Assembly: GCA_946413655.1 (NCBI GenBank) | Contig: CAMKLO010000005.1 | Span: 1-64,000 of the forward strand | Source: an uncultured Fibrobacter sp. | Lineage (GTDB): Bacteria; Fibrobacterota; Fibrobacteria; Fibrobacterales; Fibrobacteraceae | DNA: 64,000 nucleotides | Reading direction: 5' to 3' | Shown: piece by piece, positions 28,513 to 51,141 of the stretch | Layout of the letters: each line of letters opens with the position of its first letter | How positions within the stretch are numbered: position 1 is the stretch's first letter | Notes under the pieces: model-generated | What the model was told of the DNA's origin: nothing | The model's database searches: none | Seen by the model: the letters and a program-made list of their open reading frames with translations, nothing else | Program-made: the position numbers and the translations under genes

Positions 28513-30650
28513 ATAAGTTGTTTAAAGTTACTTTCCGGCTGTTGCCGTTCCTTGTGGTGCCTCTATTTGCCCATGTGAATGTGGCGTCGTTCAAGAGCTA
28601 TGTGGATTCGATTATTCCGGGAGTGCGTTACGGAATGGCACTTCGCTCTGTCAAGTCGGGGCAGGAAATTGGCAACGTCAATGGGGATGAACAGTTTACC
28701 CCGGCAAGTACGCTCAAGACTTTGACGACGGCGGCGGCGCTCCATTTTTTACCCTTGGATTACGGGCCAAAAACAGATGTAACGGTTCTTGGCGATATCA
28801 AAAAACATACGTTGACGGGGGCGCTCAAGATTCGCGGTGAAGGGGACCCGAACATATCGGCTAGATTTTACGATGACATGTTTTTTGTCTTGAATTCCAT
28901 GGCGGATTCCATCCGTGCGATGGGTATCGATACTATCAACGGTCATATCGATTTGGATACCAGCTATTACACGGGTCCGTGGAAACCTGAAAATTGGCGT
29001 AGGAACTATTACGATTCCTGGTACGGTGCCGAAGTCGGACCTCTCGGATTTAACGACAACTGCGTGACAATACGCTTTTGGCCAGGACGCCGTGGAGATA
29101 CGGCAAATGTTAGCATCATTCCCGATATAGGTTATGTCAAGGTTGTAAACAACTTAAAGACCGTCAAGGGAAGGAAGAAAAAGTGGGTATATGGAATTGA
29201 TCCTGAAAAGTCCGTGATTACGCTTGGCGGGACAATCGGCGAAGGGGTCGATTCGGCGAGCATGGTACTCCCGATTCGCAATCCGGTGGGGTATTTTAGG
29301 GCCGCGTTCATGTATGCGCTCAAGAATCGTGGAATAGTCTTTAAAGAAAACAACTTGGTTACATCAAAAAATGAATTGAAAAAGTTTTCGTTCTCGGCGG
29401 CGCCCTTGTTGAGTATCCTTGACGAAATCAATCAGCGCAGCCAGAATTTCCACGCCGAGACGCTTTTGCGAAATCTCGGAGCGCAAGTTGTGGGTGAGGG
29501 CAGTGTCGAAGGTGGACGCAAGGCGGAACGCAGGTTTCTTTTGGAAATGGACCTGAACCCGACGCATTTTGACGTGTGGGACGGCAGCGGCCTTTCACCT
29601 GAAAACAAGGTGCAGCCTTCTACGATTGCGCACATGCTCGCGAAAATGGCGCGACATCCGAAGGGCCAATATTATATCAACAGTTTTGCGAGTCCCGGCG
29701 TGGGTTCCGGAGCAAAGCGCATGCAGAATTTGGACGCCATATGGCTTACCCGTTTCAAGACGGGCTTTATTTCAGAAGTCTATGGCTTGGTCGGATACAT
29801 TTACACAATTGACGAAGATACGCTTGCTGTTGCCATGTATTTGAACGGCACGAATGAAACTCCGGATATCAAGAGCAAGGACGTTCTCGACACGCTCTGG
29901 ATGAGGATAATCGATTATACGAACAAAGGCCGTCAGTCGCTTATGGAGATGAAGACCATGTGGCTAGAAGCGCAGGGAATCATCGGATTGAACAAGCGCC
30001 TGGATTATTTTTCGCAGCAACTCTTGGGACGCCCCTACAAGCTTGGGCCGATGGGCGAAGGCCATTTTGACCGCATTGACGATAAACCGTTAGTTTATTT
30101 AGACTCCGTCGATTGCATGACGTACGTGGAAAACGTCGTTGCGCTTGCCATGGCGAAAAGCGAAAAGTCGCTATTCAAGCAACTCCAGCGCCTCCGCTAT
30201 AAGGGCGGCAATATCAGCTATATGACGCGTAAACATTACATGCTCGACGACTGGGTCGGTGAAGGGAAATATGCGAAAGTCGTCCCGATGGAAGGCGAAG
30301 TCTCGGTGACGCGCACAATGCCCAAGAAGGAATTTTTCAAGAGCCACAACCTCAAATATACGGGGAAGGAAAAGCCGCTCAAAATTCGCTACATGCCTTT
30401 GGACAAGGCAATCGAAATGGCGAAAAAGCCGTACACCGGAGCGATGAAAGTTCTCGGTGTGGCGTTTGTTGCTTCTTCCGACAAAATCGATGTGACGCAT
30501 ACGGGATTAGTCGTGTTTACGCCGGGGAAAAAGCCTGTTCTACGCCATGCGTCTTCCATCAAGAAGCAGGTTGTCGAGCTCCCGCTTGCCGATTATCTCG
30601 CTACCCGCAAAATTCCGGGAATTACGTTCTTTAAGTTTATACAACATTAG
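28509..30650 (+). CDS. D-Ala-D-Ala carboxypeptidase (PBP4/S13) fused to a DUF1460-like amidase domain
   Basis: FTPASTLKTLTTAAAL (SxxK), ETLLRNLG, WDGSGLSPENK, RFKTGFI for S13; C-terminal half YLDSVDCMTYVENVVALA...GGNISYMTRKHYMLDDWV...THTGLVV for DUF1460. ATGA overlap with the preceding gene. Confidence 0.87.
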   Translation: MNKLFKVTFRLLPFLVVPLFAHVNVASFKSYVDSIIPGVRYGMALRSVKSGQEIGNVNGDEQFTPASTLKTLTTAAALHFLPLDYGPKTDVTVLGDIKKHTLTGALKIRGEGDPNISARFYDDMFFVLNSMADSIRAMGIDTINGHIDLDTSYYTGPWKPENWRRNYYDSWYGAEVGPLGFNDNCVTIRFWPGRRGDTANVSIIPDIGYVKVVNNLKTVKGRKKKWVYGIDPEKSVITLGGTIGEGVDSASMVLPIRNPVGYFRAAFMYALKNRGIVFKENNLVTSKNELKKFSFSAAPLLSILDEINQRSQNFHAETLLRNLGAQVVGEGSVEGGRKAERRFLLEMDLNPTHFDVWDGSGLSPENKVQPSTIAHMLAKMARHPKGQYYINSFASPGVGSGAKRMQNLDAIWLTRFKTGFISEVYGLVGYIYTIDEDTLAVAMYLNGTNETPDIKSKDVLDTLWMRIIDYTNKGRQSLMEMKTMWLEAQGIIGLNKRLDYFSQQLLGRPYKLGPMGEGHFDRIDDKPLVYLDSVDCMTYVENVVALAMAKSEKSLFKQLQRLRYKGGNISYMTRKHYMLDDWVGEGKYAKVVPMEGEVSVTRTMPKKEFFKSHNLKYTGKEKPLKIRYMPLDKAIEMAKKPYTGAMKVLGVAFVASSDKIDVTHTGLVVFTPGKKPVLRHASSIKKQVVELPLADYLATRKIPGITFFKFIQH

Positions 30651-32757: not shown

Positions 32758-33468
32758 ATGGACGCATCCACAGTTGATTTGTTGAAGGGGGTTGAACTCT
32801 TTTCGGAGCTCAATGAAGAACAGTTGGGGATGATTGCCAATCTGGTAATCGTCAAAAACTTCAATCGTGATGAGACTGTGGTCTTGGAAGGAGACGATTC
32901 GGTACAGGCTCTGTACTTGATCGCCACCGGTTCCGTGCAAGTCTATATGACGGGCATCGACGGCCGCGAAACCATTTTGTCTTTCCTTGAACGCGGGGAC
33001 TTTTTCGGGGAAATGTCGCTTATCGACGGCGAACCCCGGTCTGCCTCCGTCCGTACCGTGACTGACGCTAAGTTGCTTGTCATTCACCGTGAATCTTTCT
33101 TGAGCCTTATCCGCAAGTCGCCGGAGATTGCGATGGCGCTCATGAGCGAACTTTGCAAGAGGCTCCGCAAGGCGAACAAGCAAATCGGTTCACTTTCGAC
33201 GATGTCTGTGTCTGGCCGCGTGGCCGGTACGCTCCTGAACTTGATGCAGGAACGCGGTGTGCGCATCCATACGGACAACGGAAACATGGTGACGGTCATC
33301 CACAACCGCCCGACGCAGCAGCAACTCGCCGACATGTCTGGGACGACTCGTGAAACAGTGAGCCGTATCTGTTCCTTGTTGGTGCGTACAAATGCGATTG
33401 CGATGACCGGCAAGGATATCGTCATCTTTGACGAGGACGTGCTTCAGGAAAAAGCTACCAAGGGCTAG
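32758..33468 (+). CDS. Crp/Fnr-family transcriptional regulator
   Basis: cNMP-binding domain (GDFFGEMSLIDGEPRSASVRT) and C-terminal HTH (TQQQLADMSGTTRETVSRICSLL). Confidence 0.93.
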   Translation: MDASTVDLLKGVELFSELNEEQLGMIANLVIVKNFNRDETVVLEGDDSVQALYLIATGSVQVYMTGIDGRETILSFLERGDFFGEMSLIDGEPRSASVRTVTDAKLLVIHRESFLSLIRKSPEIAMALMSELCKRLRKANKQIGSLSTMSVSGRVAGTLLNLMQERGVRIHTDNGNMVTVIHNRPTQQQLADMSGTTRETVSRICSLLVRTNAIAMTGKDIVIFDEDVLQEKATKG

Positions 33469-33488
33469 GCCCGCTAAATAGAATTGAT

Positions 33489-34250
33489 ATGAATAAAATA
33501 AAGTCGCTTTGGAACAAGGTTAGGCAAACCGCCATTTTCAAGGCTTTTGTCATCTGGATTGTTGTCGTAGTTGTGCTTGTCTTTTTGGTCGATAAGCTTT
33601 TGATGCCTGCGTTTGCCGGGGCGTTTGCGAGTACGGGTACAGTCCCGAATCTCGAAGGGCTTTCGGAACAGGCCGCGGATTCCGTGTTGAAAAAGGCTGG
33701 CTTTAAGTATGAATGGACTGAAGAAGGCCGCTACAGCGCTCAGGTCCCGGCGGGCATGGTGCTTGTGCAGATGCCGAAGGCTGGGCGTACGGCAAAGATC
33801 GGCCGCACGGTGAAGCTCACGAAGAGCCTCGGCCTTCGCAAGGTCGTGATTCCCGACTTGCGTGGCAAAAGCCAGAAGCAGGCGGATATTTCGCTTGCCC
33901 GTGCAGGTCTTGTCCAAGGTGAAGTTGTCAAGGGCGCCCACCAGAGTATTCCTCGCGGTGTTGTGATTCGCACGATTCCGATTGCTGGCGACACGGTACG
34001 CGTAGGCGATACGGTGAAGGTTGTTATTTCTGCTGGCGTTACGACAGGTCGAATTTTGCTCCCCAATTTCGAAGGAATCCTCATGGACGAAGTTTATCCG
34101 CACATGGATAGGCTTGGATTCAAGGTGGGTTCTATCAAGCGCATGAAAAGTGAAGATGGCGCTCGTCCTGGTTCCGTCATCGAAACCTCTCCGAAATATG
34201 GCGACTATCTGAAGCCGGGTTCGAGGGTTGACTTTATCATTGCGGACTAG
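33489..34250 (+). CDS. PASTA-domain membrane protein
   Basis: N-terminal TM then three PASTA-like repeats (VPNLEGLSEQAADSVLKKAGF; IPDLRGKSQKQADISLARAGL; LPNFEGILMDEVYPHMDRLGF). Confidence 0.88.
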   Translation: MNKIKSLWNKVRQTAIFKAFVIWIVVVVVLVFLVDKLLMPAFAGAFASTGTVPNLEGLSEQAADSVLKKAGFKYEWTEEGRYSAQVPAGMVLVQMPKAGRTAKIGRTVKLTKSLGLRKVVIPDLRGKSQKQADISLARAGLVQGEVVKGAHQSIPRGVVIRTIPIAGDTVRVGDTVKVVISAGVTTGRILLPNFEGILMDEVYPHMDRLGFKVGSIKRMKSEDGARPGSVIETSPKYGDYLKPGSRVDFIIAD

Positions 34251-34267
34251 AACTGTTTAGGGAGATT

Positions 34268-36190
34268 TTGATGCTTCGTATCTTTTTTACGTGGTTGCTT
34301 TTTTGGGGAATGGTGTCTTTGTGCGCCTGCAGCTCTGCGCCTGCGAAAAAAAAGAACGATGTACATCCCGCTACTACAATGAATGCGGCCGATTCCGCTT
34401 TGGTCGAAAAGGTGGTGGCCGATGTGGCCGCGAAGCCCAAGGTCGAAGTTGATTTGGAAGCCGCCCATGAATTTTTCTTCCTTGCGAAGAATATGGAATT
34501 GCATGGCGACCAGCGTCAGGCCGATTTCTTCTGGAAGCAGGCTTATAAGGCGGACCCGACGAGCCGTTATTTGGGCTTTGGCGTTGCCGAACGTCTCGTT
34601 GCCGCTGGCGAAGATTCCTTGGCTTTAATCGAAGCGCAAAAGGCATCCAAGCTTAGGGGTAAACGCACGGCTTCGCAATATGCGTTGCTTGCCCGCCTTT
34701 ATGTGAAAACCGGCGAATCCGATTCGTGCCGCAAGTATTTTAATTTGGGTTTGGATTCTTCGCGTTACCAGGACATGGCTTTGCTTTACGATTACAGCCT
34801 GTACCTCGAAGCTGTCCGTGACGAGAAAGAACTTGTCCGTATTTACGACCTGCTTTTGCCGAAGGTCAATTACATTCCTACTTTGTTTCAACGTCAGCTG
34901 TCGCTTCTCCTGGATTTAGGGCGCGATTCTGCTGTGGTTGATCTTTTTGGTAAGGCGCACGAGGCCACTGGCGACAAGCAGATGCTTTTGCAGAAAGTAC
35001 GCGGCCTCATGGCGATGAAACGCTACAAGGAAGCCATTGCCATTGTGGATACGCTCACGAGCGCAAAACCCGAAGACGAGGAGATGACAATTATGGTGCT
35101 CTCTTCGATGCCGGGTGATAGTGCTTATGCATTTGCCATGAAGAAATATTATGAGGATGGCGTGAAAACGCCTGCGGTTCTCTGCTTTATTGGCCAGTAT
35201 GAATATGACATTGGCAACCGCGATAGCGCGAAGGTTCACTTGCTAGAATCCGTAGGTAAGTTGCAGGGTCAACCGAAATACGCAAACCGCGCCTACCTTG
35301 GACTCGTGAACATCTTTGCGAGCGAACAAAAGTTTGCCGAAGCCATCAAGTACGCCGAAAAGTCCGATTCCGTCAGCAACGGCGACACGAGAATGCTGCT
35401 TGCGTCTGTGTATGCGTTGGCCGACAAGTACGACAAGGCTTACCCCCTGCTTGATTCGCTCATGCAGTTCTGGGGAACATGGAAACCGCTTCCTGGCGTT
35501 GTGGATTCCGTAAATCTTGCGCAGATGCAGAACGAAGCGCAGATAAAGTATTTGCAGGTCCTCGACATTTATTCGAGAGCTCTCATCGGCGAAGCCTTGG
35601 ATATCGAAAAGAACGTGCGCGCAGATTCTCTCAAGAAGGCTCGTGCTCTCGACAATCGCACTCGTGCGCAGCAAATGCTCGAAACCTTCTTTGCGAAGGA
35701 TTCGACATATATGAGGGTTCGCCTTTCGATGGCGATGAACCTGGAACGTCTCAAACGCTACGACGAATCGTTCCTCCAATTTGAAGCCTTGTTGAAACAA
35801 CCTGGGTTCTCTCCGCATGAGACGGCTTCGACCTTGAACTATTACGGTTATTCGCTGATTGATTTGAACCGCTCGACGGATGAAGTCGAGAAGGGTTACA
35901 AACTTGTTCTCGAAGCCCTCGTTCTCGAAAAGGACGGTGAAGGGAAGGATGCCTATTTGGATTCCAAGGCGTGGGGCCTGTACCGCCTGGGCCGTTTTGA
36001 CGAAGCCTATCAGGTGATGCAGCTGATTGATAGCAAGATGATGGATCGTGACGATGTCTTCTGGGAACACATGGCCGCAATCCAGGATGCACTTGGTTTG
36101 AAAAAGAATGCTCGCAAGTCCTATAAGAAATTGCTGAAACTCAACCCCAAGCACCCTGCCGCATTGAAGTTCTTTGGCAAAAAGAAGTAG
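34268..36190 (+). CDS. TPR-repeat lipoprotein
   Basis: Lipobox CACSSAPAKKK; multiple TPR-like helices across 640 aa. Confidence 0.85.
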   Translation: MMLRIFFTWLLFWGMVSLCACSSAPAKKKNDVHPATTMNAADSALVEKVVADVAAKPKVEVDLEAAHEFFFLAKNMELHGDQRQADFFWKQAYKADPTSRYLGFGVAERLVAAGEDSLALIEAQKASKLRGKRTASQYALLARLYVKTGESDSCRKYFNLGLDSSRYQDMALLYDYSLYLEAVRDEKELVRIYDLLLPKVNYIPTLFQRQLSLLLDLGRDSAVVDLFGKAHEATGDKQMLLQKVRGLMAMKRYKEAIAIVDTLTSAKPEDEEMTIMVLSSMPGDSAYAFAMKKYYEDGVKTPAVLCFIGQYEYDIGNRDSAKVHLLESVGKLQGQPKYANRAYLGLVNIFASEQKFAEAIKYAEKSDSVSNGDTRMLLASVYALADKYDKAYPLLDSLMQFWGTWKPLPGVVDSVNLAQMQNEAQIKYLQVLDIYSRALIGEALDIEKNVRADSLKKARALDNRTRAQQMLETFFAKDSTYMRVRLSMAMNLERLKRYDESFLQFEALLKQPGFSPHETASTLNYYGYSLIDLNRSTDEVEKGYKLVLEALVLEKDGEGKDAYLDSKAWGLYRLGRFDEAYQVMQLIDSKMMDRDDVFWEHMAAIQDALGLKKNARKSYKKLLKLNPKHPAALKFFGKKK

Positions 36191-36196
36191 GTTCGT

Positions 36197-36988
36197 ATGA
36201 CCGCGGTATTTGACAAGGGTGCCTGTTTGCAAAAATTTTGGCGGGAATTTTTTTTACTGCTGTTGCTCACTCTCTTTTTGACAGGTTGTACCGGCGGGCG
36301 TCAGGCTGCGTCGAAAGCTGCAGAAAATGTCGAAGCTCCGCTCGATAGCCTCAAGGCCGTCTTTTCGCTTACAATTCAATCCCCGGATGGTGTAGAACAT
36401 GATTTGGATGCCGTGCTGTTCTCGGTTCCGAACAAACGCTACCGCATGGAATTGACGGGTACGCTTGGCATCGGTGTCGCATCGCTCCTCTGGCTCCCCG
36501 AAGGCTGGCAGATGGTGTTCCCGATAGAAAAAATGTACGTGAAGGGAGCCGGTTACATGGTTGGGCTTTTGAACGATCCGTCGCTTCCGCTAGTACATAT
36601 CCATCAGGTGGCCGGACTTTTTGACGGGAAAGTTATCCCCGACAATCTCGAAGAAATCTCTGTGCGCGATTCCGTGATTGTTGGCTCGGTAAATTCTGTT
36701 GTCTTGAAGATCCACGAAGCTCGTGACGCGATGACACGCCGTTATACTTACGCCGAAAAAGACGGCGAAGTGCTCTGGCTACAGACGCTTGGCCGTGACG
36801 GCAAGGACGAAAAACTTGTCATTGAAGAATACAAGGAATTCAAGGGAGTAAAGACCCCCTCGCATATTTTATTTGTTCGTGATACGACAAAATTCCTCGA
36901 ACTCCGCGTAAAACGTGTGACCCGCGGTAAATCATTTGGTTTTGGCACCTGGCGCCTGAATATCCCGAGAAGCTATAAGCAGATTTAA
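36197..36988 (+). CDS. Outer-membrane lipoprotein (LolB/DUF4292-like)
   Basis: Lipobox LFLTGCTGG; LSLTIQSPDGVEHDLDAVLFSVPNKRYRMELTGTLGIGVASLLWLPEGWQMVFP beta pattern. Confidence 0.65.
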   Translation: MTAVFDKGACLQKFWREFFLLLLLTLFLTGCTGGRQAASKAAENVEAPLDSLKAVFSLTIQSPDGVEHDLDAVLFSVPNKRYRMELTGTLGIGVASLLWLPEGWQMVFPIEKMYVKGAGYMVGLLNDPSLPLVHIHQVAGLFDGKVIPDNLEEISVRDSVIVGSVNSVVLKIHEARDAMTRRYTYAEKDGEVLWLQTLGRDGKDEKLVIEEYKEFKGVKTPSHILFVRDTTKFLELRVKRVTRGKSFGFGTWRLNIPRSYKQI

Positions 36989-37052
36989 GTAACGGGCGAA
37001 AGACATCCCCTTGTATCACTATAAAAGGTAAAGTTGAGAAGTGGCTTCCCAG

Positions 37053-37112
37053 CTTACACCGTTCAGGATGACGTTTCTAAGCCCTAAGCTCTAAGTTCTA
37101 AGTTCTTTTTTT
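37053..37112. repeat. Intergenic mosaic: TTCAGGATGACG element plus ctaagttct short tandem repeat
   Basis: cttacaccgttcaggatgacgtttctaagccctaagctctaagttctaagttctttt. Confidence 0.65.
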
Positions 37113-37126
37113 TGTAAATTATAACC

Positions 37127-40100
37127 ATGAAGTTAAATGCTACCGTTCTTGCATTGTTTTTTGGCGTGTTCTCTTTGGCACATGCCGTAGATACACTTGA
37201 CGTTTTTGTGCTGCGCGTGCAGTTCAAGAAGGAATCTCCGGACAACTCGCTTACGACGGGGACGGGGGTTTTCGATTCCGATACGGCGACGTATAAACTG
37301 GACCCGTCGGGCAGCCGCGGGAGCAAGCATTATTGGAAAAAGCATCTGGATTTTGCGAACTCCTATTATCAGGCGGCGAGCGGCGGAGAACTTGTCGTTA
37401 GGGCGACGGTGTTCCCGGAAGACGGAACGGCTTACGAACTGGACAAGCCGATAATCGACTACAATCGCACGCAGAAGTTGAAGGGCGAAAAGACTGCCGA
37501 ATACGACGTGGCTCGATTCCGCGATTATATGCGCTTTGTTTATGATGCCGTGATGAAGGCTCACGAGTCCAAAAATTCCCCGTTTAAGGTTCCGCTTTCC
37601 AAGAATCCGAATACCAGGCGTGCCTTCATGATTGCGCATGCCGGAGCGAGCAACTTGATTGACGGCGGAAGCATGGGGACGAAGGGCGCCAATACTCCGG
37701 GCGATTTCTTGGATATTTACGTTTCGAGGCCTGATTTTGCGTATCTGCAAGACACGCTTCCGGGTGTCGTTGTAGATAAAGTGGATTCCTTGAAGAACGG
37801 GATTGTGCTGAAGGGCGCTACGATTGATACGCTCACGTCGATGATGGTGGTGAGCGAAACGGCGTCGCAGGACGGGCTCAACTGGGGTATCAACGGTATC
37901 GTGGTGAACCAGATCGGCCGTGAACTCGGAATGCCCAATACGTTCGACGTGGGCAAGGGCATTTCGCGTCTGGGCTTTTTCGACATGATGGACTTTGCGG
38001 GTTACAATGCGGGTAACGGGTTCTTCCCGGTTCTGCCTGCGGCTTGGGAACGCGCTTACATGGGCTGGTCCAAGGTTAAGGAAGTGCGCCCGACGGCGGG
38101 GCATCCGGTGACGGTCGATATTGCTGCTGCGGGTAGCGGTCTTGGTACCGAGATTGTGAAGGTTGCCTTGAATGCCAGCGAATACATTTTGATTGAAAAC
38201 CGCCAGCGTTCCTGGGATAAGGACGGTATGGTGGATGTGTATCTCGGCGAGGCCAAGCAGAATAACGATATCACGACGAAGTCCATTTTGGTTGATAGTT
38301 TGAGTACCGTGTTTGAAGATAGCATCTGTGTTAAGAACAAATGCGAGCGTAACAAGAAAAAGGCGGAAGGCCTTATTATGGGCGTGAGCAGTTTTGACGC
38401 TGGCCTCCCGGCGAGCGGCATTGCCGTGTGGAAGGTGAACGACTGGTACTTGCGCGAATCGTTGCGGTTGGGAACAGCGAACATTTGGGGTGGTGAACAG
38501 TATCGCGACCACCAGTTTGGTCTTTCGCTTGTGGAGTCCGACGGTGTGCTGAGTATCGGCAAGACGTTCAAGAACGCACTTGGCGAAGACACATACGATT
38601 ACGGTAGCGGTACGGACTTGCTCCCGCATTTGCGTTATGCTAAGGACAAAAAGTTCGATACGATAAAGACGATTTTGCCGACAGGTTATGCAAATACGGC
38701 GACAACGCAGGGCGGCTACACTGGCATCAAGATTACGGTGGATGTGCCGAAGGACGCCCGCATCGAAAAGACTTCGAACGCATTTATGGGTGATAGCGTC
38801 AAGAGTTTTGCGGCTCCGGTGATTCGCGTGACCATCAGCGTCGATGAAGGAAGTATTGAAAATTCGAAATTCCCCCGCGATATTGGCCTGAATTCGGCGG
38901 TACGCGGTGCGGTGTTTGTGGATGACCCTGAAAACGTTGGCGAAAAAATCATAGTCGTGGGTGCCGAAGATGGAACTTTGCAGGCATTTAGCTCTTTGGG
39001 CGATACGCTTTTCGTTGCCGATACTGCGATTGTGCAGAAGTCGCTGACTCGCGATAGCGCCGAGCGTGAAGTGCCGCTGTACCGCGTAGGTGCAAGTTAT
39101 GGTCCGCTTGTCGGGCTTGCTAGCAATGGAGAACGCATTATCAGTTTGCATAAGGAAAAGCTTGTGATGACTTCGTTCAATAGCGGCATTCCGGAGCAGA
39201 CTGTCTTGGATTTGAAGAAGAGTGCTGGAGGGCTTCCTGGCATGAATTCTGCAATTGCTGGCCCGATTATGTATAAGAACGATGTGTATTTTGCTTCGGA
39301 TTCGACGATGTGGACGGCTCGTTGGAATAATGACGGCTATATATCAAGATCGTCTATGAAGAAATTGTCAAAGATTGCTCATGTGGATGACATGGCTCTT
39401 TGCAAAATTGAAAGTGTCTATAGAGTCAATGGTGACCAGCCTGATTGGGTCAGCGTTGGCGACGGACATGTCTATGTTCAGGAAATGATTATAGGGGATG
39501 GCAAATTTGGTTCAACACCTGCTTATGGAAAGGGCAGGGTTGTCTCGATCCCCAATGCCCAAGCCGATGAAAAGTTCCGCGTGGCTTGTACAGACTTGGA
39601 TCGCGATGGCTCGAACGAAGTGGTTGTGCTGGGTAGCCGTGGAACGATTGCTGGCTTCAAGATTGTCGAAGGTGGCGATATAAAGACGCTTTGGACCAAG
39701 AACTACAAGCGCGGTGCCGCGGGCACGAGCGGCCTCAAGGACGAAACGTCTGGTATTGCTCTTGGCGATATCAACGACGACGGCTACCCTGAAATTGTGT
39801 TCCTCGGAGACAACCTCGTTTATGCGCTTGACCGCTTTGGCGTGCCGATAGACGGCTTCCCGGTGACGATTAATCGCGGTGCGCCAATTGTTGGATTCCA
39901 CAGTGATCCGCTTCTTGTCGATGTCACGGGTGACAAAATTCCGGAAATTCTCGTGCCGTCGAGCGATGGGTTAGTTTATGCTTACACGGGCAAGGGCAAG
40001 CGCGTCTCGGAACGTTTCCCGATTGCGGCGGGCAGTTTCGAAATGGTGGATTCTCTCGAACAAGTCGTTCCGATGAGCATCTTTGTGACGGATGCGGTGA

Positions 40101-40570
40101 AAAAATCCAAGGGTCCTGAACTTTATGCATTCCACAGGAACAGCGTGTCGGCGTTCCGTTTGGACAAGGCTGCAAATGGCGCCGAAAAGGCTGCCGCTGC
40201 GTGGTCGCTCCCAGCTGGCGGCAACGAACGCACTGGATTCTTCGATGCTTCCAAGCTCGGCGATGTCGAGGCTGCTAAGGCAAAAGACGAAATATCGGAC
40301 TTCTTCATCTACCCGAACCCGGTTCGCGGTGGCGATGCGAAAGTGCGTATGGAACTGGGCGCGAAGCCGCAGTCCATCAAGCTCGAACTGTACGATATCA
40401 CTGGCTTGTGCGTGTTCAAGACGAACATCCCGGATGGTGTTGCCGGCATGAACCAGGCGAATCTCGATTTGCACAATTTGGGATCGGACGTTTATACGGC
40501 CCGCCTCAAAGTCAAGTTCGAGAGCGGCAAGACAAAACAGAAACTATATCGCGTAGGTGTTGTTCGCTAG
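37127..40570 (+). CDS. M6-like metallopeptidase-fold protein with FG-GAP-like repeats and T9SS sorting domain
   Basis: Signal peptide; M6-like region but NQIGRELGMP in place of HExxHxLGLP; FG-GAP-like repeats (ACTDLDRDGSNEVVVLG, ALGDINDDGYPEIVFLG, DVTGDKIPEILVPSSDG); C-terminus FFIYPNPVRGGDAKVRMEL...YRVGVVR. Confidence 0.83.
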   Translation: MKLNATVLALFFGVFSLAHAVDTLDVFVLRVQFKKESPDNSLTTGTGVFDSDTATYKLDPSGSRGSKHYWKKHLDFANSYYQAASGGELVVRATVFPEDGTAYELDKPIIDYNRTQKLKGEKTAEYDVARFRDYMRFVYDAVMKAHESKNSPFKVPLSKNPNTRRAFMIAHAGASNLIDGGSMGTKGANTPGDFLDIYVSRPDFAYLQDTLPGVVVDKVDSLKNGIVLKGATIDTLTSMMVVSETASQDGLNWGINGIVVNQIGRELGMPNTFDVGKGISRLGFFDMMDFAGYNAGNGFFPVLPAAWERAYMGWSKVKEVRPTAGHPVTVDIAAAGSGLGTEIVKVALNASEYILIENRQRSWDKDGMVDVYLGEAKQNNDITTKSILVDSLSTVFEDSICVKNKCERNKKKAEGLIMGVSSFDAGLPASGIAVWKVNDWYLRESLRLGTANIWGGEQYRDHQFGLSLVESDGVLSIGKTFKNALGEDTYDYGSGTDLLPHLRYAKDKKFDTIKTILPTGYANTATTQGGYTGIKITVDVPKDARIEKTSNAFMGDSVKSFAAPVIRVTISVDEGSIENSKFPRDIGLNSAVRGAVFVDDPENVGEKIIVVGAEDGTLQAFSSLGDTLFVADTAIVQKSLTRDSAEREVPLYRVGASYGPLVGLASNGERIISLHKEKLVMTSFNSGIPEQTVLDLKKSAGGLPGMNSAIAGPIMYKNDVYFASDSTMWTARWNNDGYISRSSMKKLSKIAHVDDMALCKIESVYRVNGDQPDWVSVGDGHVYVQEMIIGDGKFGSTPAYGKGRVVSIPNAQADEKFRVACTDLDRDGSNEVVVLGSRGTIAGFKIVEGGDIKTLWTKNYKRGAAGTSGLKDETSGIALGDINDDGYPEIVFLGDNLVYALDRFGVPIDGFPVTINRGAPIVGFHSDPLLVDVTGDKIPEILVPSSDGLVYAYTGKGKRVSERFPIAAGSFEMVDSLEQVVPMSIFVTDAVKKSKGPELYAFHRNSVSAFRLDKAANGAEKAAAAWSLPAGGNERTGFFDASKLGDVEAAKAKDEISDFFIYPNPVRGGDAKVRMELGAKPQSIKLELYDITGLCVFKTNIPDGVAGMNQANLDLHNLGSDVYTARLKVKFESGKTKQKLYRVGVVR

Positions 40571-40597
40571 CGTTGTAATGGTGGAAGGGGCAGGACC

Positions 40598-41473
40598 ATG
40601 TGGCAGAAACTTTGCTTGTTACTTTGTGCGTCGTTAGCGCTTGTTGCGTGTACGGCGACGGGTGAGCCCGCCGAAGGTCAGGATATTTCGCCTGATGGCG
40701 GCATCGCGTCTTCCGGTTCTGTTTCCAAGTCGTCTTCGAGCACGGATGCCCCCGATGGAAAATCTGATGTTTTCGATAAGCTGGATTGGGTGAAAATCCC
40801 CAATGCCTTTATTACCCGTGGTATCAATGAATTCTCTGTGAATTCGTTCTCTATTGCGACGACGGAAGTAACGCAAAAGCTGTATGAACTTGTGATGGGC
40901 GGCTTGCCGAAACAGTCCAAGGCAGGTGATGAACGCGCTGTTTCCAATGTCAGCTGGTATCGCGCTGCCTTATTTTGCAATGAGTTTTCCAAACTTTCTG
41001 GATTTGATACGGCTTACGTTTATAAGTCGATTGCTGGCGATTCAACATTGGTGGACTTGACGATTGACTATTCCGTGAAAGCCGTTCGACTCCCGACTGA
41101 AAATGAATGGGAAATTGCCGCTCACGGAGGCACTACAACGACTTATTATTGGGATACGGATGTTGCGTCCAAATATGCGTATTACGGACAAACTGCGGGT
41201 CCTGATGAGGTTGCCCAAAAATTGCCGAACGAGTATGGACTTTATGATATGGCTGGTAACGTTGCCGAATGGATGAACGACTGGTATGACACTTATCCGA
41301 AAAGCAAGATTGCCAATTATACCGGGCCAGCAAAGGGAACGTATCGCGTTATCCGCGGTGGTGGCTGGTCGGACAAGGTAACTGTACTTGCTCCGAAGGA
41401 ACGTGAAAAACTCAATCCAGCACAATCTAAAGAGACCATTGGCTTTAGACTGGTCTATTCTACCGGATTTTAA
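40598..41473 (+). CDS. SUMF1/FGE-sulfatase-domain lipoprotein
   Basis: Lipobox LALVACTATG; ATTEVTQKLYELVMG, VSNVSWYRAALFCNEFSKLSG, LPTENEWEIAAHGG, NEYGLYDMAGNVAEWMNDWY, RVIRGGGW. Confidence 0.92.
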   Translation: MWQKLCLLLCASLALVACTATGEPAEGQDISPDGGIASSGSVSKSSSSTDAPDGKSDVFDKLDWVKIPNAFITRGINEFSVNSFSIATTEVTQKLYELVMGGLPKQSKAGDERAVSNVSWYRAALFCNEFSKLSGFDTAYVYKSIAGDSTLVDLTIDYSVKAVRLPTENEWEIAAHGGTTTTYYWDTDVASKYAYYGQTAGPDEVAQKLPNEYGLYDMAGNVAEWMNDWYDTYPKSKIANYTGPAKGTYRVIRGGGWSDKVTVLAPKEREKLNPAQSKETIGFRLVYSTGF

Positions 41474-41518
41474 ACTTGCGGTCCTTTTGTCTTGATTGAA
41501 AATTTTTAGATTTTCAGC

Positions 41519-41947
41519 ATGAAGTTTGCCTATGTGCTATCCGCATTGCTTTGCGGACTTTTTGTGGCTTGCTCTGAAGAAAAAAAAGAGCCGCTCCCTG
41601 ACTTGCCGCCTGTGGATATCCCAGCGACTGTTTTCGGTTTTTATTCCGGGCGCCTGCCGTGTGACGACTGCAAGTTGCTCAAGGTTGATATGGACCTGTT
41701 TGAAGACGGAACGATTCTCGCCGTGCGGACAAAAGTTCTGGATTCTGTATTTGTCGATACGTTACATGGAACATATGTCTATGCGGATAGCGTCGTGAAG
41801 ATGGAACTTTCGGAGAACTCGGCTCATTGGGCGTTCAAGCGCGACAAGGTGGGAAATCTCGCCTTCATGAAGTCGGGAGAGATTTATCGCGACGCGGACG
41901 GCTTGAAATCGGTCATGGTGCGTTTCTATAAAAAGATTCTCAAGTAA
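41519..41947 (+). CDS. NlpE-like lipoprotein
   Basis: Lipobox LFVACSEE; FGFYSGRLPCDDCKLLKVDMDLFEDGT is the NlpE N-terminal signature (CxxC). Confidence 0.85.
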   Translation: MKFAYVLSALLCGLFVACSEEKKEPLPDLPPVDIPATVFGFYSGRLPCDDCKLLKVDMDLFEDGTILAVRTKVLDSVFVDTLHGTYVYADSVVKMELSENSAHWAFKRDKVGNLAFMKSGEIYRDADGLKSVMVRFYKKILK

Positions 41948-41959
41948 GGGGTTGAAAAT

Positions 41960-42724
41960 ATGTTTACTGTCTTGATTGCTGATGATGAACCTCTTGCACG
42001 TGTGCGCATGCGCTCTCTGCTTGAAGCGTATTCGGGCGAAATCGAGATTCTGGGCGAAGCTGGTTCCGGTGCGCAGACTATCCAGAAAATTCATGACCTT
42101 GATCCTGATGTCGTTTTCTTGGATATCCAGATGCCGGATATGGATGCGTTCGAAGTCCTCCGCTCGCTGAACGAAGACGATATCCCGCTTATTGTGTTTA
42201 CGACGGCTTACGACAACTTTGCGTTGCGCGCTTTCGAAGAGAATACTGTCGATTACCTTTTGAAACCGATTGACCCGGAACGCCTCGCTGCGACGATGGC
42301 GAAACTCCACAAACGCATGCCGCACGAAGGCGGGCAAGGCATGCCTGCGGATTTCTCCTGGGACAAGTTCAAGGAATTGATGAGCATAGGCGGGATTTAT
42401 ATGCAACGTTTGCAGGTAAAGCAGTCCGACCGCATTCTGCTTGTGAACATGGACGAAGTTATCCGTTTCCAGAGCGAAGAAAAATATACGACGGCTTACA
42501 CCACTACGACGCAGTACGTGATTGACCAGACGCTTGTGGAACTGGAAAAGCGACTTGATCCGAACCAGTTTGTTCGAGTTCACCGTGCGCATTTGGTGGC
42601 CATTGACTATATTGCCGAAATTCGAAAGAATGAAGCGGGCCGCTTGTGCATTGTGCTTCGCGACAAGAACCGGACCCAGATCACCGTGAGCCGTAATTTT
42701 GTAAAAACAGTCAAGAGTCTGTAA
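41960..42724 (+). CDS. LytTR-family response regulator
   Basis: Receiver VLIADDEPLARVRMRSLL...DVVFLDIQMPDMDAFEVL; LytTR VDEV..FQSEEKYTTAYT...QFVRVHRAHLVAIDYI. Confidence 0.93.
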   Translation: MFTVLIADDEPLARVRMRSLLEAYSGEIEILGEAGSGAQTIQKIHDLDPDVVFLDIQMPDMDAFEVLRSLNEDDIPLIVFTTAYDNFALRAFEENTVDYLLKPIDPERLAATMAKLHKRMPHEGGQGMPADFSWDKFKELMSIGGIYMQRLQVKQSDRILLVNMDEVIRFQSEEKYTTAYTTTTQYVIDQTLVELEKRLDPNQFVRVHRAHLVAIDYIAEIRKNEAGRLCIVLRDKNRTQITVSRNFVKTVKSL

Positions 42725-42736
42725 TTGGGAGTTTTG

Positions 42737-44092
42737 ATGGAACAGGCACCTCAAAAAAAATCAACGAAGAAATTTTTAAAATCATTTACTCGTGAAGTCA
42801 TTGTACCGGTAGTCCTTGCGTTAATCGTTATCCAGTACGTCATTCAGGCGTTCCAGATTCCGAGCGGCTCCATGGAAGATTCCCTCAAAACGGGAGACTT
42901 TTTGCTTGGCCTCAAGTTTACTTACGGTTCACCGATTCCCTTCTCGAACCAGAAGTTCCCGGGGTATGCAGAACCGACGCATGGCGATGTCGTTATTTTC
43001 CGCTATCCTGGCGAACCGGAATATCCCGATAACAATCCCAAGCGTTACACGCACTTGTTCAATGCTCTCATGCTGGGCAATTACTACTGGGATCATTCTC
43101 CCGAGAAAGGTCAGCCGCATTTGGTGCATTACGCCGACGGCCCGAAGGATTACATCAAGCGCTGTGTCGCTGTGAGTGGCGATACTGTTGCGGTGCACGG
43201 TGGCAAGCTTTTCTTGAACGGCAAGCGTCAGGATTCGCTCCCGGCATTCGGCAAATGGACGGCTAGCGTTCGCACGCTTTCGCCGAGAGACGAAGTTGCA
43301 GAATTTGTCGTGCCTTCCGTTGGCGATACGCTGTATGTCGATTCGCTGCCGATGATAAAACTCTGGTGGCTGCGTTCGCTTGTCGCACAGGAGAATCCGG
43401 ATTCTTCCGTGCATTTGGAACTCTCGCTCTTGCGCGATGGTCACGAGAACAACAATTACGTATTCAAGGACTTTAGATTCCCTGTGGAAAACGACCGCGG
43501 TCTTTTGCTGAACGCGATGCTTTCCCGGAACCAGACTGTTGTCCAGCAGCGTCTCACGCTTGGCGATACGTTGTCCGGTGCCATGCCGTTCAGCTATTTT
43601 AAGGAACTCGCGAAGATTGGCTTTTTGCCAATGCTCGACCCGCATGATCCGAATTTGAATAGCGGCTTTACCCGCCCCGTGAGCTACGTGTCTTTCGAAG
43701 GTTCCATTCTTCAGGATCTCGAAGGCAACGTGAAGCGCTTGAATATGGCTGTGCCCGCTGTTGCCGATTCAGCCGATTCCGTAGCGGCGGCTCCAGAAAC
43801 TTCGCATTTCGAAATACAGCGCAACCTCTATTTGGGCTCCGAGAAAATCGATCGTTATGTTGTAAAGTATCCGCAATATTTTATGATGGGCGACAACCGC
43901 GACAATTCTGCTGATAGCCGCTATTGGGGACTTGTCTCGCTCCGCAACATCCGTGCAAAAGCGTTTGTCATCTATTTCTCCTTTGAAAACGATGACCAAA
44001 AATTTGCTCTTGGAAATCCGTTTACTTGGTGGCGCATTCCGTTCCGTATCCGTTACACCCGCATTGGTAAAATCATTGACTTGATCAAGTGA
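42737..44092 (+). CDS. lepB: Signal peptidase I with large internal insertion
   Basis: IPSGSMEDSLKTGDFLL, YIKRCVAVSGDTV, YFMMGDNRDNSADSRYWGLV. Confidence 0.93.
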   Translation: MEQAPQKKSTKKFLKSFTREVIVPVVLALIVIQYVIQAFQIPSGSMEDSLKTGDFLLGLKFTYGSPIPFSNQKFPGYAEPTHGDVVIFRYPGEPEYPDNNPKRYTHLFNALMLGNYYWDHSPEKGQPHLVHYADGPKDYIKRCVAVSGDTVAVHGGKLFLNGKRQDSLPAFGKWTASVRTLSPRDEVAEFVVPSVGDTLYVDSLPMIKLWWLRSLVAQENPDSSVHLELSLLRDGHENNNYVFKDFRFPVENDRGLLLNAMLSRNQTVVQQRLTLGDTLSGAMPFSYFKELAKIGFLPMLDPHDPNLNSGFTRPVSYVSFEGSILQDLEGNVKRLNMAVPAVADSADSVAAAPETSHFEIQRNLYLGSEKIDRYVVKYPQYFMMGDNRDNSADSRYWGLVSLRNIRAKAFVIYFSFENDDQKFALGNPFTWWRIPFRIRYTRIGKIIDLIK

Positions 44093-44094
44093 GA

Positions 44095-45864
44095 ATGAAG
44101 TTCTCGAAGGTTGCATATTTTTTGGCGTCATGCCTGATGATGGCCGCTTGCGCAACGCAGGTGGCTCCGTCTGGCGGTCCCGAAGATAAGCTCCCGCCAC
44201 GCGTGGCTGCGGTTTCTCCTGCACCCAAGACGGCGAACCATCCGAATGAACTTTATGTAAAACTGGAATTTGATGAATGGATTAATGCTTCGATTCCGCG
44301 AGGGGCTATTTCTATTTCGCCTCCGATAGAAAAAAGATTGAAACACGAAGTCCACGGTAAAACGCTCGAAGTTTATTCGAAAGCGGAACTGGATACGGGT
44401 ACGACCTACACGGTCACCTTCGCAGGCGGCATCAAGGACTTGCATGGGAATGCTCTTGCAAAACCGTTCCAGGTGGTGTTTTCGACAGGCGCTACCATTG
44501 ATTCGCTTACGCTTAGTGGTCGCGTGATGGTTCCGGATTCGCTTGTCCGCAAGAAATCGTACCCGAGCGTCGGGCTTTATTTGATGGGCGCCGATCGCGA
44601 AACAAAACGGTTCTTGCAAAAGTATCGCGATACGGTGACACATGTGCTGGACTCGCTTCCGTTGCTGACCAAAGAAGAACCGCTCTACCTCACGGCGGCA
44701 GACAGCATAGGAAACTTCACCTTTACAGGCCTCAAGGCTGGGCGCTACCGCGTCGTCGCGTTCGTCGATATGAACGGGAACCACAAGATTGAACCTTCGT
44801 CGGAGTTGGCGGGCGTATGGGTTTCTGACTTACTGTTGAGCGAATCAACACAAGACACCATGTGGATTGCGTTAGCGGATCAGGACACGACGCTTCTGGA
44901 ACTGGATAACGTAACACAGCCTTTCAAGAATGTGCTCGAAGCGAATTTTACGCGCCACGTGTATTTTGATTCTGCCTTTGCGGACACTTCGAACTGCTAT
45001 CTTGCTTCGCCTGATGGCGATACGCTTTATCCGCAACTTGTGTATCTCGGGACAACAAGTGCGCCGCGCTTTTACTTTGACCCTAAACCGAAAGACGAGG
45101 TTTTGTACAAGTTTGTCTGTCGTAGCGCCAAGGATTCGCTCTCCCGCGCACTTGACTCCGCAAGGAACTTTGCCGAAATCGAATGGAAGGAAATGGAAGC
45201 CGATACGCTTGATCCGAAAATCCAGACGGTTCAGGTTACAGGCAAGGCGAAAAATGCATTCCCGGATGATTCCTTGATCGTGATTTTCAACAGGCCAGTG
45301 CTCGATTCCCTGACGGACATGTTCTTTATCGTCGAAGGCAAGGACACCGTCCAAGTCCCGGTTGCGAAAATGGACCCGATTCGTTTTGTTGTAAAGCGCG
45401 ATACCCCTTGGCCTACAGATACCAAGTTCAACCTGTTGCGTGGTTACCGCGATACGACTTTGGCGAAAGCGGACAGCAATGGCGTCCGCGATACCGTGAT
45501 AGAGATAAAGTATGAAAATAAGCTTATGTTCGAGACTATATCCAAGTTGAAGCTTGCTTCGCTTGTGGGGAAAATCCCCGGTGCCAAGACGGGATCCTTT
45601 GTTCGACTTAAGTCTGTAGAGACCGGCAAGTACGAATACGCGAAGTGTTCCGCTTATGGGGCCTTTTCTTTCAGTGACCTTGTTGAGGGAGGCTACATTA
45701 TTGACTATTATTACACAGAAGAAGGGGCGGATTCGCCAAGTGGTGGATCTTTGCACCCATTCAAATACGGTTCTGCATGGCGAGCTCCGCTTGATACTTT
45801 AAAGATAAAGAGCGGGGCGAACGATCTAGAACAATTGATGCCGCAATTGCCGGCATTACCTTAA
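44095..45864 (+). CDS. Ig-like (Big_5) domain lipoprotein
   Basis: Lipobox MMAACATQVAPSGGPEDKLPPRV; ELYVKLEFDEWINASIPRGAISISPP...TYTVTFAGGIKDLHGNALAKPFQVVFSTG. Confidence 0.85.
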   Translation: MKFSKVAYFLASCLMMAACATQVAPSGGPEDKLPPRVAAVSPAPKTANHPNELYVKLEFDEWINASIPRGAISISPPIEKRLKHEVHGKTLEVYSKAELDTGTTYTVTFAGGIKDLHGNALAKPFQVVFSTGATIDSLTLSGRVMVPDSLVRKKSYPSVGLYLMGADRETKRFLQKYRDTVTHVLDSLPLLTKEEPLYLTAADSIGNFTFTGLKAGRYRVVAFVDMNGNHKIEPSSELAGVWVSDLLLSESTQDTMWIALADQDTTLLELDNVTQPFKNVLEANFTRHVYFDSAFADTSNCYLASPDGDTLYPQLVYLGTTSAPRFYFDPKPKDEVLYKFVCRSAKDSLSRALDSARNFAEIEWKEMEADTLDPKIQTVQVTGKAKNAFPDDSLIVIFNRPVLDSLTDMFFIVEGKDTVQVPVAKMDPIRFVVKRDTPWPTDTKFNLLRGYRDTTLAKADSNGVRDTVIEIKYENKLMFETISKLKLASLVGKIPGAKTGSFVRLKSVETGKYEYAKCSAYGAFSFSDLVEGGYIIDYYYTEEGADSPSGGSLHPFKYGSAWRAPLDTLKIKSGANDLEQLMPQLPALP

Positions 45865-45877
45865 AGGATGGAAAAAC

Positions 45878-48589
45878 ATGGAAAGAGTTCCTGCATTTGT
45901 AGCGCTTGACTTGGAAACGACGGGTCTGGATTTCGAAAAAGATGAAATCATAGAAGTTGCGCTTGTTCGTTTTGAGAACGGTGAGCCGAAAGAAAATATT
46001 GATTTCTTGGTCAAGCCCTCTGCTGCGGAGCTCCGCCCCTTTATTGAAACGCTTACTGGCATCAGCGAAAAGGATTTAGCTGACGCCCCGGATTTTGCGA
46101 CGGTAGCCGGACAGATTTGCTCGTTTATCGGCGAACTCCCGATTGTCGCACACAATGCTGTTTTCGATTCCAAGTTCCTCAAGCAGACTTTTGCCAAGGT
46201 CGGGATTTCTTACGACTCCCATGTGTTCTGGGATTCGCTCACGCTTTCGCGCATTGCGTTTCAGGATGTTCCGAACCACCGTCTCGATACATTAGTGCAA
46301 GAACTGAACATTGAACGTAGCCGTGCCCACCGTGCCTTGCCCGATGCCGATGCTTGCGGACGTTTGTTTGTAAAGGCTCTCGAAAAGATTTCTTCGATGG
46401 ATCCTTGGATTTACGAAGCCCTTTCTAAAGTGGCCAAAGGCTCTGGTTACGAGACCCTTTTTAGTTCGAATGCCGAAACGCTTGCTGCTCCAAAGTACAA
46501 ACTGCCTGCTGCTCCCGCTCAGGAGGCCTTGCCCAAGTCCAAGGCTCCGCGTGTAAGCGAGTTCTTCAAGGAAGGCGGATTCATCTCATTTTTCATTGAA
46601 GGATACAAGCCCCGCCACAACCAGCAGGATTTTGCCTCGGTCATGGAACGCAACATGTACAAAGGCGGTCTCTGCGTACTCGAAGCTCCGACCGGTTCTG
46701 GCAAGACTTTGTCTTACCTCGTTACGGCGGCGAACAAGGCAATTACGGGCGAACGCGTGATTATCAGTACAGCAACGCGCACCCTGCAGGAACAGCTCTG
46801 GACAGAAGCAATCCCGCAGATTGCAAAGATTTACAATGGCGAACTCCGCCCGGCGATTTTGAAAGGCCGCGACAATTATCTTTGTCTCCGCAAGTTCGAA
46901 GAACTGCTGATGCACCCGCAGACGCTTCTCTCCACCGAAGAACGCGATTCCTTCATGGCGCTCATCCCGTGGGTTCTGACAACTGAAACAGGCGACATCA
47001 ACGAATGCAATTCGTTTAGCCCGAGCCGTAATCGTGTACTTTGGTCTAAACTCTCGTGCAGTGCCTCGTGCTGCAACGGCGAAAATCACACGCATCACGA
47101 AAACTGCCCGGCGCTTATCGCGAAACGCAAGGCGATGAATGCGAACATGGTGCTTGTGAACCATTCACTTTTCCTTGCGGACCTGCAACTCGATTTTGCG
47201 TTGCTCCCGGCATACGAACACATCGTCTTTGACGAAGCGCACCGCCTGCCCGAAATCAGCAACCAGGTGTTTGGCCGCTCCATCTCGTTCTTTGGATTCA
47301 GGAACATCGCAAAGACACTCGAACCTTCCAAGGCCGGTGGCGATGGCCTCCTTGTAGAAATTGCAAGCCGCATCCCGGCGGAACAGCCGGAACTTCATGA
47401 ACTTTGTGACAAACTCTCCGAAGCTTTGGGCGAAGCCGAAAAGGCCCTGCACCGCTTCTTCATGAAAATCGGCAAGAAACTTGCCAAGCAGAAAAACAGC
47501 CGCAGCGGCTTTACATATACAAACAGCATCCTCGCAGAATTCGAAGCTGACCCGGCCGCCTTCCTCGAACAGTACGCGACTGCCCGCGATTTGGCAGAAA
47601 AACTTGTTGCAGGAACTAAAGACTCTCTCAAAGGCATCGTGAGCGATCTCGAAGGCCGTATGACCGAAATCAGCCACTTTGTTTCTGACTTTGAATTTGT
47701 AACAAAGGCGGGCCGTGCCGATTGGGTATTCTACATGGAAGAACCCTTCAATCCGCATACCATCAAGCTGCATGCGCTCCCGCTCCATTCCGGCAACATC
47801 TGGAGAGAAAAATTCTATCCGTGGATCAAGTCCGCGACATTCACCTCGGCGACGCTTTCTGTGCAGGCCGACCTCACGTACTATTTGCAGAAAATGGGCA
47901 TGGACAATCTGCGTTTGAGTAAACAGCCGTTCGTGCGCGTTTATACGGAACCCTCCGATGTGAACGAGCGCCGTTCCGTGATGGTCGCAAAATTCTTGCC
48001 GAAGCCCTCCGCTCCGGAATTTGGCGACGCCTTGAACGACACGCTCTTGAAGGTGCTCCCGTCGATTGAAGAAAATACGATGGTGCTCTTTACAAGCGTT
48101 GCGACAATGATGAAAGCACAGGCCGCACTTGCTCCCGCATTCGCCGAACGTAAGAAACTTTTGCTTTGCCAGCACGTCGATGGTTCGCTCGATGGCCTCG
48201 TTGCGATGTTCCGCAAGGAACGCGGCGCTTGCCTCCTTGGCTGCCAGAGCCTCTGGGAAGGCGTCGATTTCCCGGGCGATGCGCTCAAGCTGCTCGTCAT
48301 CACGAAGCTCCCGTTCCCGAACCCGACAGACCCGCTTGTCGCAGGTCTCACGAACGAGATGAAAGCCACCAACAAGAACTTCTTCAAGGATTTCTTTGTT
48401 CCTGAAGCCTACATGGAACTCCGTCAGGGAATGGGTCGCCTGCTGCGCTCCGATTCCGATTCAGGCAAGGTTCTCATCTTGGACAACCGCGTTATCCTCG
48501 AACGTTACGGCAAGACCTTCGCCCGCATCTGGAATTTCAAGAACCGCATCGCGAATTCCATCGCCGACATCGAGCGCTTCGTGAAGTAA
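45878..48589 (+). CDS. DnaQ-like exonuclease / DinG-family helicase fusion
   Basis: ALDLETTGLDFEKDEIIEVALV exonuclease motif; EAPTGSGKTLSYLV Walker A; FDEAHR; LLGCQSLWEGVDFPGDALKLLVITKLPF; QGMGRLLRSDSDSGKVLILDNR. Confidence 0.94.
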   Translation: MERVPAFVALDLETTGLDFEKDEIIEVALVRFENGEPKENIDFLVKPSAAELRPFIETLTGISEKDLADAPDFATVAGQICSFIGELPIVAHNAVFDSKFLKQTFAKVGISYDSHVFWDSLTLSRIAFQDVPNHRLDTLVQELNIERSRAHRALPDADACGRLFVKALEKISSMDPWIYEALSKVAKGSGYETLFSSNAETLAAPKYKLPAAPAQEALPKSKAPRVSEFFKEGGFISFFIEGYKPRHNQQDFASVMERNMYKGGLCVLEAPTGSGKTLSYLVTAANKAITGERVIISTATRTLQEQLWTEAIPQIAKIYNGELRPAILKGRDNYLCLRKFEELLMHPQTLLSTEERDSFMALIPWVLTTETGDINECNSFSPSRNRVLWSKLSCSASCCNGENHTHHENCPALIAKRKAMNANMVLVNHSLFLADLQLDFALLPAYEHIVFDEAHRLPEISNQVFGRSISFFGFRNIAKTLEPSKAGGDGLLVEIASRIPAEQPELHELCDKLSEALGEAEKALHRFFMKIGKKLAKQKNSRSGFTYTNSILAEFEADPAAFLEQYATARDLAEKLVAGTKDSLKGIVSDLEGRMTEISHFVSDFEFVTKAGRADWVFYMEEPFNPHTIKLHALPLHSGNIWREKFYPWIKSATFTSATLSVQADLTYYLQKMGMDNLRLSKQPFVRVYTEPSDVNERRSVMVAKFLPKPSAPEFGDALNDTLLKVLPSIEENTMVLFTSVATMMKAQAALAPAFAERKKLLLCQHVDGSLDGLVAMFRKERGACLLGCQSLWEGVDFPGDALKLLVITKLPFPNPTDPLVAGLTNEMKATNKNFFKDFFVPEAYMELRQGMGRLLRSDSDSGKVLILDNRVILERYGKTFARIWNFKNRIANSIADIERFVK

Positions 48590-49309: not shown

Positions 49310-49387
49310 TTTCGTCGGTTCGAAGCTCTTGTTCGCGACGTGCTGACCCTACCCAGCCTATCAATGCTAGGCGTACATTTTAAAATT

Positions 49388-50524: not shown

Positions 50525-50604
50525 AGAATATATTTGTTATTAAACTCGCTGTTAAAAAACAACAAATCCAGAATGTTAAAATATTATGAAAATTTGGGGT
50601 ACTA

Positions 50605-51132
50605 ATGAAGATATTTACTTTCTTTATATTTGCAGTTTTCTTCACCGGATGCGCAATACATTCTTCTAGCGAATGCAGGACTGATTCATGTAAATCCCAT
50701 AAAGAGACGGAACAATTTTGTAGGCAAATGCTGGCAGAAGGTGTATTTTGCTTGGAGTACAATTTCTTTGATTATTGCGAGATAAAGGGTGGTAACAACC
50801 AGAAAATCGGCACTCCATGTTTAGATTCATTAATTTATAAGGAAATTCTTGAAACCTTTGACGGAAAATGGGTTGGCGGGGGAACGGTTGGGACAGCCCG
50901 GCCATCTTCAGAGCCCACGGAAGTGGGACCTTATTGGGTAAACGATATTAGCTATAGCTATAGTTCTTTTACTAGAGATATTGTACAAGATGATGAAATT
51001 TACCATCATTATTGCAGATCAAAAAACAACCAAAACTGCGATATGATATTTGAGATCCATACCGACGGTGGCCCGATGTACCAATACAATTATGAAACAA
51101 AAGAAATAAAGGCGGCGGGTTGGCCGATGTAG
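50605..51132 (+). CDS. Orphan lipoprotein, partial relative of the same family
   Basis: MKIFTFFIFAVFFTGCAIHSSS lipobox; VGPYWVNDIS and HHYCRSKNNQNC resemble GPYWMYDIIS/KHVCRSDDGVKC. Confidence 0.7.
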   Translation: MKIFTFFIFAVFFTGCAIHSSSECRTDSCKSHKETEQFCRQMLAEGVFCLEYNFFDYCEIKGGNNQKIGTPCLDSLIYKEILETFDGKWVGGGTVGTARPSSEPTEVGPYWVNDISYSYSSFTRDIVQDDEIYHHYCRSKNNQNCDMIFEIHTDGGPMYQYNYETKEIKAAGWPM

Positions 51133-51141
51133 TTTCCCAAA

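Follow-up and report, generated by a model that had tools for sequence, protein, structure and literature searches.

A replaced M6-type active site in a predicted surface protein conserved across the phylum of Fibrobacter

M6 peptidases carry an active-site motif of the form HExxHxLGLPD, and the question raised by this locus is what an M6-like protein might do once that motif has been replaced. The window, by which we mean the whole 64,000-nucleotide stretch of DNA analysed from an uncultured Fibrobacter sp., holds one open reading frame that an earlier note had described as a probably exported M6-like protein with H, E and H exchanged for N, Q and R, a putative pseudoprotease that might act as a binding scaffold or a decoy. 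We call its product M6i; its parts and conserved neighbours are as follows.

34268..36190, + strand: TPR lipoprotein, a conserved neighbour upstream of M6i (synteny).
36197..36988, + strand: LolB-like outer-membrane lipoprotein candidate, a conserved upstream neighbour (synteny; no Pfam or NCBIfam match).
37127..40570, + strand: M6i, a predicted T9SS-type surface pseudo-metalloprotease of 1147 aa with an ATG start (open reading frame, NF052323 and orthologues).
37127..37186, + strand: Sec signal peptide, residues 1-20, ending AHA/V (inspection; helix 2-18 in the model).
37187..38746, + strand: pseudo-M6 (metzincin-like) domain, residues 21-540 (AlphaFold2, hhalign, TIGR03296).
37853..37912, + strand: signature SETASQDGLNWGINGIVVNQ, residues 243-262, the top-conserved 20-residue window of M6i (conservation profile).
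37907..37939, + strand: replaced zinc/catalytic motif NQIGRELGMPN, residues 261-271 (active form HExxHxLGLPD).
37982..37996, + strand: retained Met-turn segment DMMDF, residues 286-290 (M288 in 60/62 and D289 in 62/62 orthologues).
38759..40171, + strand: beta-propeller with FG-GAP repeats, residues 545-1015, the least conserved domain (PF13517, model, Foldseek).
40274..40567, + strand: T9SS type A-like C-terminal domain, residues 1050-1147 (PF18962 and TIGR04183 just under cut-off; seven predicted strands).
40598..41473, + strand: FGE-fold lipoprotein directly downstream of M6i after a 27 bp gap (PF03781; kept within the genus).

Profile alignment places the replaced segment over the active site of M6 peptidases. 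Comparison by hhalign of the N-terminal part of M6i (63 orthologues) with ten active M6 proteins, eight from this genome and two from relatives, gave a probability of 99.3 and an E-value of 1e-20, which bears out the M6-like label. Residues 261-274, NQIGRELGMPNTFD, align over HEFGHVLGLPDLYD, with NQIGRELGMPN over HEFGHVLGLPD, and the flanking GFFDMMDF, rightly described earlier as kept, falls over the WDIM (Met-turn) segment of active M6 proteins; per-sequence alignment gives the same placement of the dead motif. The exchange of H, E and H is thereby confirmed, and a fourth change had been missed: besides N261, Q262 and R265, N271 replaces the aspartate that is the third ligand. Because metzincins hold zinc through two histidines and the D or H of HExxHxxGxxD/H (PMC12237041), reading this pattern onto the aligned site leaves the window protein with none of these three ligands and without the glutamate, and it would be expected to have lost both zinc and activity. 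A motif scan of the whole window protein found no HExxH, HxxxH, HxxE or HxH, and HExxH is absent from the full length of all 62 aligned full-length orthologues. Metzincin features that are kept include G268 after the active-site helix (62/62) and the Met-turn methionine, and the models predict a helix at 255-267 at the former active site.

TIGR03296 matches M6i under its cut-off (E 2.6e-10) and also matches 63/63 orthologues; Pfam PF05547 does not match M6i. A PDB sequence search with the whole protein or the N-terminal alignment returned no match, and a Foldseek search of the pseudo-M6 N-terminal model against the PDB returned no meaningful one (best E 0.06, antibody fragments) and no hit to a solved M6 enzyme such as immune inhibitor A (4yu5), so the M6 assignment stands on sequence profiles and the predicted order of secondary structure.

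The replacement extends far beyond this genome. At the aligned site HExxH occurs in 0/80 non-redundant orthologues from the same phylum, in agreement with the predicted pseudoprotease; N is present in 76, Q in 78 and R in 75 of them (94-98%), and G268 and P270 in 80/80. Two orthologues of one family (L043 and L044, family f2) read HQxxR, the only ones with a first-position histidine, with E and the second H still missing. Between close pairs, dN/dS lies at 0.056-0.146 over the full length of M6i and at 0.000-0.064 within residues 240-300: the protein is under strong purifying selection, strongest around the dead site. A recent pseudogene or an assembly or sequencing error is ruled out by these low values together with the same replacement in about 80 independent genomes. 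Mean weighted conservation is 0.53 in the pseudo-M6 domain versus 0.36 in the propeller, and the top-conserved window, residues 243-262, leads into the dead helix. Near the old site E244, Q248, N252, G254 and G257 are invariant, as are the further polar residues D289, E352, E357 and R359, while H171, D179 and H501 are near-invariant.

M6i had been treated as one odd paralogue, a view that does not survive wider comparison. In the proposed survey of active-site state, HExxH proved intact in every other M6 protein of the genome (9/9), and in a tree a very long branch (2.3 substitutions per site, support 1.0) lies between the M6i orthologues and the active M6 proteins; M6i forms a separate orthologous group of ancient origin. 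Its best NCBIfam match is NF052323, an equivalog named ‘T9SS-dependent M6-like inactivated metalloprotease’ (E 1.1e-79, 268.6 bits), which also matches all 63 N-terminal orthologues. An inactivated T9SS-dependent M6 protein is thus already curated, and ‘pseudoprotease’ itself is not new. The model's cut-off is 600 bits, with M6i below it and 0/151 phylum genomes above it, and the M6i clade of this phylum falls outside the curated equivalog. NF052323 matches 150/151 phylum genomes, though some of the weakest matches, in incomplete genomes, may be other proteins, and 89/89 of those with completeness of 90% or more and contamination of 5% or less; it matches none of 14 control genomes, the Bacteroidota one among which does match the PorV and PorZ models. 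A whole-protein search with M6i matched 58/61 related genomes, and those with an intact gene have a single full-length copy. This phylum-wide presence, and the single full-length copy in the genomes checked, are new here. Searches of viral contigs and plasmids found no M6i, and a contig search beyond the phylum with a single sequence matched only that sequence's own genome, Candidatus Raymondbacteria. Our literature search found no paper combining ‘pseudoprotease’ and ‘type IX secretion’ and no experiment on M6i.

AlphaFold2 models full-length M6i (pLDDT 88, pTM 0.84; 87 and 0.89 for residues 1-600) as a pseudo-M6 domain at 21-540, a propeller at 545-1015 and a seven-stranded C-terminal domain at 1056-1146, and this predicted combination of pseudo-M6 domain, beta-propeller and seven-stranded T9SS C-terminal domain is new here. 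The signal peptide and FG-GAP repeats claimed before both stood, the former reading MKLNATVLALFFGVFSLAHA-V by inspection and the latter passing the Pfam cut-off (FG-GAP_3, E 1.8e-9). The claimed T9SS tail fared less clearly: PF18962 (24.2 bits, cut-off 27) and TIGR04183 (19.9 bits, cut-off 23) both fall just short, though the prediction has the seven strands typical of type A tails (PMC12618676); it lacks an extra hairpin of the type found in uncleaved PorU/PorZ tails. Foldseek matches the propeller to solved propellers, with a TM-score by target of 0.60-0.62 for YxaL. We regard predicted export and the suggested binding scaffold as supported, the binding itself being putative.

The window's genus, and part of its class, share the order purA, crp, PASTA, TPR lipoprotein, LolB-like lipoprotein, M6i, as read from genes called by a simple longest-ORF method, and the FGE-fold lipoprotein that follows M6i is conserved within the genus. 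This lipoprotein scores 79 of 350 bits with the PorK/GldK model, below cut-off, and 108.8 bits with TIGR02171. Positions 37079-37126, directly before the M6i start codon, hold short repeats (CTAAGCTCTAAGTTCTAAGTTCT) and a T run, with no clear ribosome-binding site; there is no Rfam family in 33000-46000, and no notable promoter signal was found at the M6i locus. Elsewhere in the window, a single open reading frame at 28509-30650 (+) fuses a PBP4-type D-Ala-D-Ala carboxypeptidase (PF02113) to an AmiA-like amidase (PF07313) as a peptidoglycan double hydrolase. Tandem lipoprotein-like open reading frames with no function assigned lie at 49340-52961 (+), where 49340-50524 and 51831-52961 have 70-76% identical DNA blocks in common, about 2470 bp apart.

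The deeper families of the phylum have a different gene order: an isocitrate-dehydrogenase-like gene, then c10, c5, M6i and c6. The c5 product, of about 800 aa, joins Reg_prop propeller repeats to a barrel of the PorV/PorQ family, which it matches at 178-192 bits (cut-off 90). Its gene lies directly upstream of M6i at 18 of the 20 deep-lineage loci with a callable upstream gene, and also in genome G052, a linkage that is new here. Further genomes tested all have c5 (9/9); in the window's class, its own genus included, it stands apart from M6i, and for this genus we infer the pairing from the other families. The window's own genome has a c5 match on contig C115, interrupted by the contig end; another candidate, C4:60885 (746 aa), was rejected as a barrel plus repeat protein. 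On contig C4, L116:6750-8987 (+) encodes a 746-aa PorV-family-like barrel joined to a long TPR-like repeat region, in a stretch that also carries ExbB- and ExbD-like genes. On the other side of M6i, immediately downstream, the deep lineages have c6, a protein of about 1100 aa that combines a peptidase-MA domain with PD40 propeller repeats; its HExxH is intact (HEFAH or HEYAH in the copies read), so an apparently live metalloprotease adjoins the dead one (L098:3969-7295, L087:3368-6817 and 16 further deep-lineage loci). T9SS genes in the window's genome encode SprA, a PorU-like C25 peptidase and PorV-family proteins, and this genome and most relatives searched have a PorZ-like gene, under the PorZ model's cut-off. 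On M6i itself the PorZ model NF052228 scores 11 bits, in the tail only, versus a cut-off of 260.

We propose, as a reading that seems to us reasonably probable, that M6i is a pseudoprotease anchored at the surface, with a putative binding site in its old cleft, and that a PorV/Q-type barrel holds it in much the way that PorQ holds PorZ. The computed basis for this is the residue loss, the purifying selection, the distribution, the predicted layout and the linkage to c5, from which location, inactivity, binding role and partner are inferred. A catalytically dead M6-type (metzincin) domain, followed by a beta-propeller and then by a T9SS C-terminal domain, would be exported by Sec and next by T9SS and come to lie on the outside of the outer membrane. 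There the old cleft, its zinc ligands lost, would be retained for binding a peptide segment, a glycan or a protein, and M6i would remain on the surface, contributing structurally or as an accessory to outer-membrane/T9SS surface assembly, neither secreted enzyme nor decoy. The most likely anchor would be a PorV/PorQ-family barrel gripping its C-terminal domain. Since nearly every phylum genome searched has M6i in one copy with its former cutting site almost unchanged, it probably binds a partner and does not cut. Much more tentatively, M6i and c5 might form a third T9SS barrel/surface-protein pair, beside PorV:PorU and PorQ:PorZ, serving as a phylum-specific core part of secretion or attachment in which the cleft of a retired protease recognises tails or anchors of secreted proteins.

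M6i could instead be ordinary T9SS cargo outside the machinery, an adhesin or glycan-binding protein with a lectin-like propeller and a dead protease as mere scaffold. In PDB searches its propeller resembles lectin and sensor propellers (PVL-type lectins; YxaL, BT4663-type), its tail is type A-like, and surface enzymes in such organisms have been proposed to leave by T9SS (PMC6851124). Cargo repertoires differ among species, however, whereas M6i was found in every genome checked that is complete enough; conservation peaks at the former cleft and is lowest in the propeller domain; and the barrel gene c5 adjoins M6i in deep lineages. We therefore consider cargo a possible explanation but an improbable one.

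Two further readings would keep the M6-like fold at work in other ways. That M6i is still an active hydrolase, through other metal ligands or a zinc-free mechanism, might be suggested by the invariant polar residues, from E244 to R359, near the old site in sequence and by near-invariant H171, D179 and H501, but the window protein has none of the scanned zinc-site motifs and the only two near-invariant histidines, H171 and H501, are distant in sequence; such activity seems very unlikely to us. Slightly less credible still is the decoy raised in the earlier note, a pseudoprotease that absorbs protease inhibitors or host factors. Lost catalysis with a retained flanking fold would suit it, but the binding face of a decoy against external agents should vary fast, whereas the former cleft of M6i is its most constrained part (dN/dS 0-0.06 around the dead site, 0.06-0.15 overall), and the gene spans lineages that differ widely in genome size and type. 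A housekeeping binding role is favoured over a decoy by purifying selection, by the gene's presence throughout the phylum and by the peak of conservation at the former cleft.

To our knowledge, nearly all that has been worked out about T9SS comes from Bacteroidota. For Fibrobacter-type bacteria, the system has been proposed to bring cellulose-degrading enzymes to the cell surface (PMC6851124). If our proposal is true, M6i would supply a missing part of the Fibrobacter-type T9SS machinery, as a surface protein without enzymatic activity that is conserved across the phylum and linked to a PorV/Q-type barrel, and it would show a route by which a metzincin protease retires into a binding module.

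Comparison with known systems sets M6i apart from each of them. With the M6 peptidases (immune inhibitor A, PF05547/TIGR03296) it has in common a homologous catalytic domain, the active-site helix, the glycine after that helix and the Met-turn; it differs in the replaced H, E and H, in the window protein also the third-ligand D, in its other C-terminal domains and in an extra conserved SETASQDGLNWG loop. NF052323 embodies the same concept, an inactivated M6 domain with T9SS type A sorting, but M6i scores far below that equivalog's cut-off. In Porphyromonas gingivalis, PorU and PorZ are exported by T9SS, keep uncleaved tails and are anchored by the barrels PorV and PorQ (PMC5562754, PMC8545088, PMC11285876). 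Like PorZ of that attachment complex, M6i appears to be a non-catalytic surface protein with a propeller and a T9SS-like tail that, judging by gene adjacency in deep lineages, may be paired with a PorV/Q-family barrel (PMC8545088, PMC5562754), whereas PorZ carries a second propeller and lacks an M6 domain. The idea of M6i as a PorZ substitute is weakened by the separate PorZ-like gene of this genome, though that gene is under the model cut-off; M6i thus looks like an addition, not the PorZ of the phylum. In Flavobacterium johnsoniae, genes for type B substrates often lie beside those of dedicated shuttle barrels, and these PorP/SprF pairs resemble the deep-lineage arrangement in that a surface-protein gene adjoins an outer-membrane barrel gene (PMC12618676). 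In M6i, by contrast, the tail is type A-like, and the neighbouring barrel belongs to the PorV/Q family, not to PorP/SprF.
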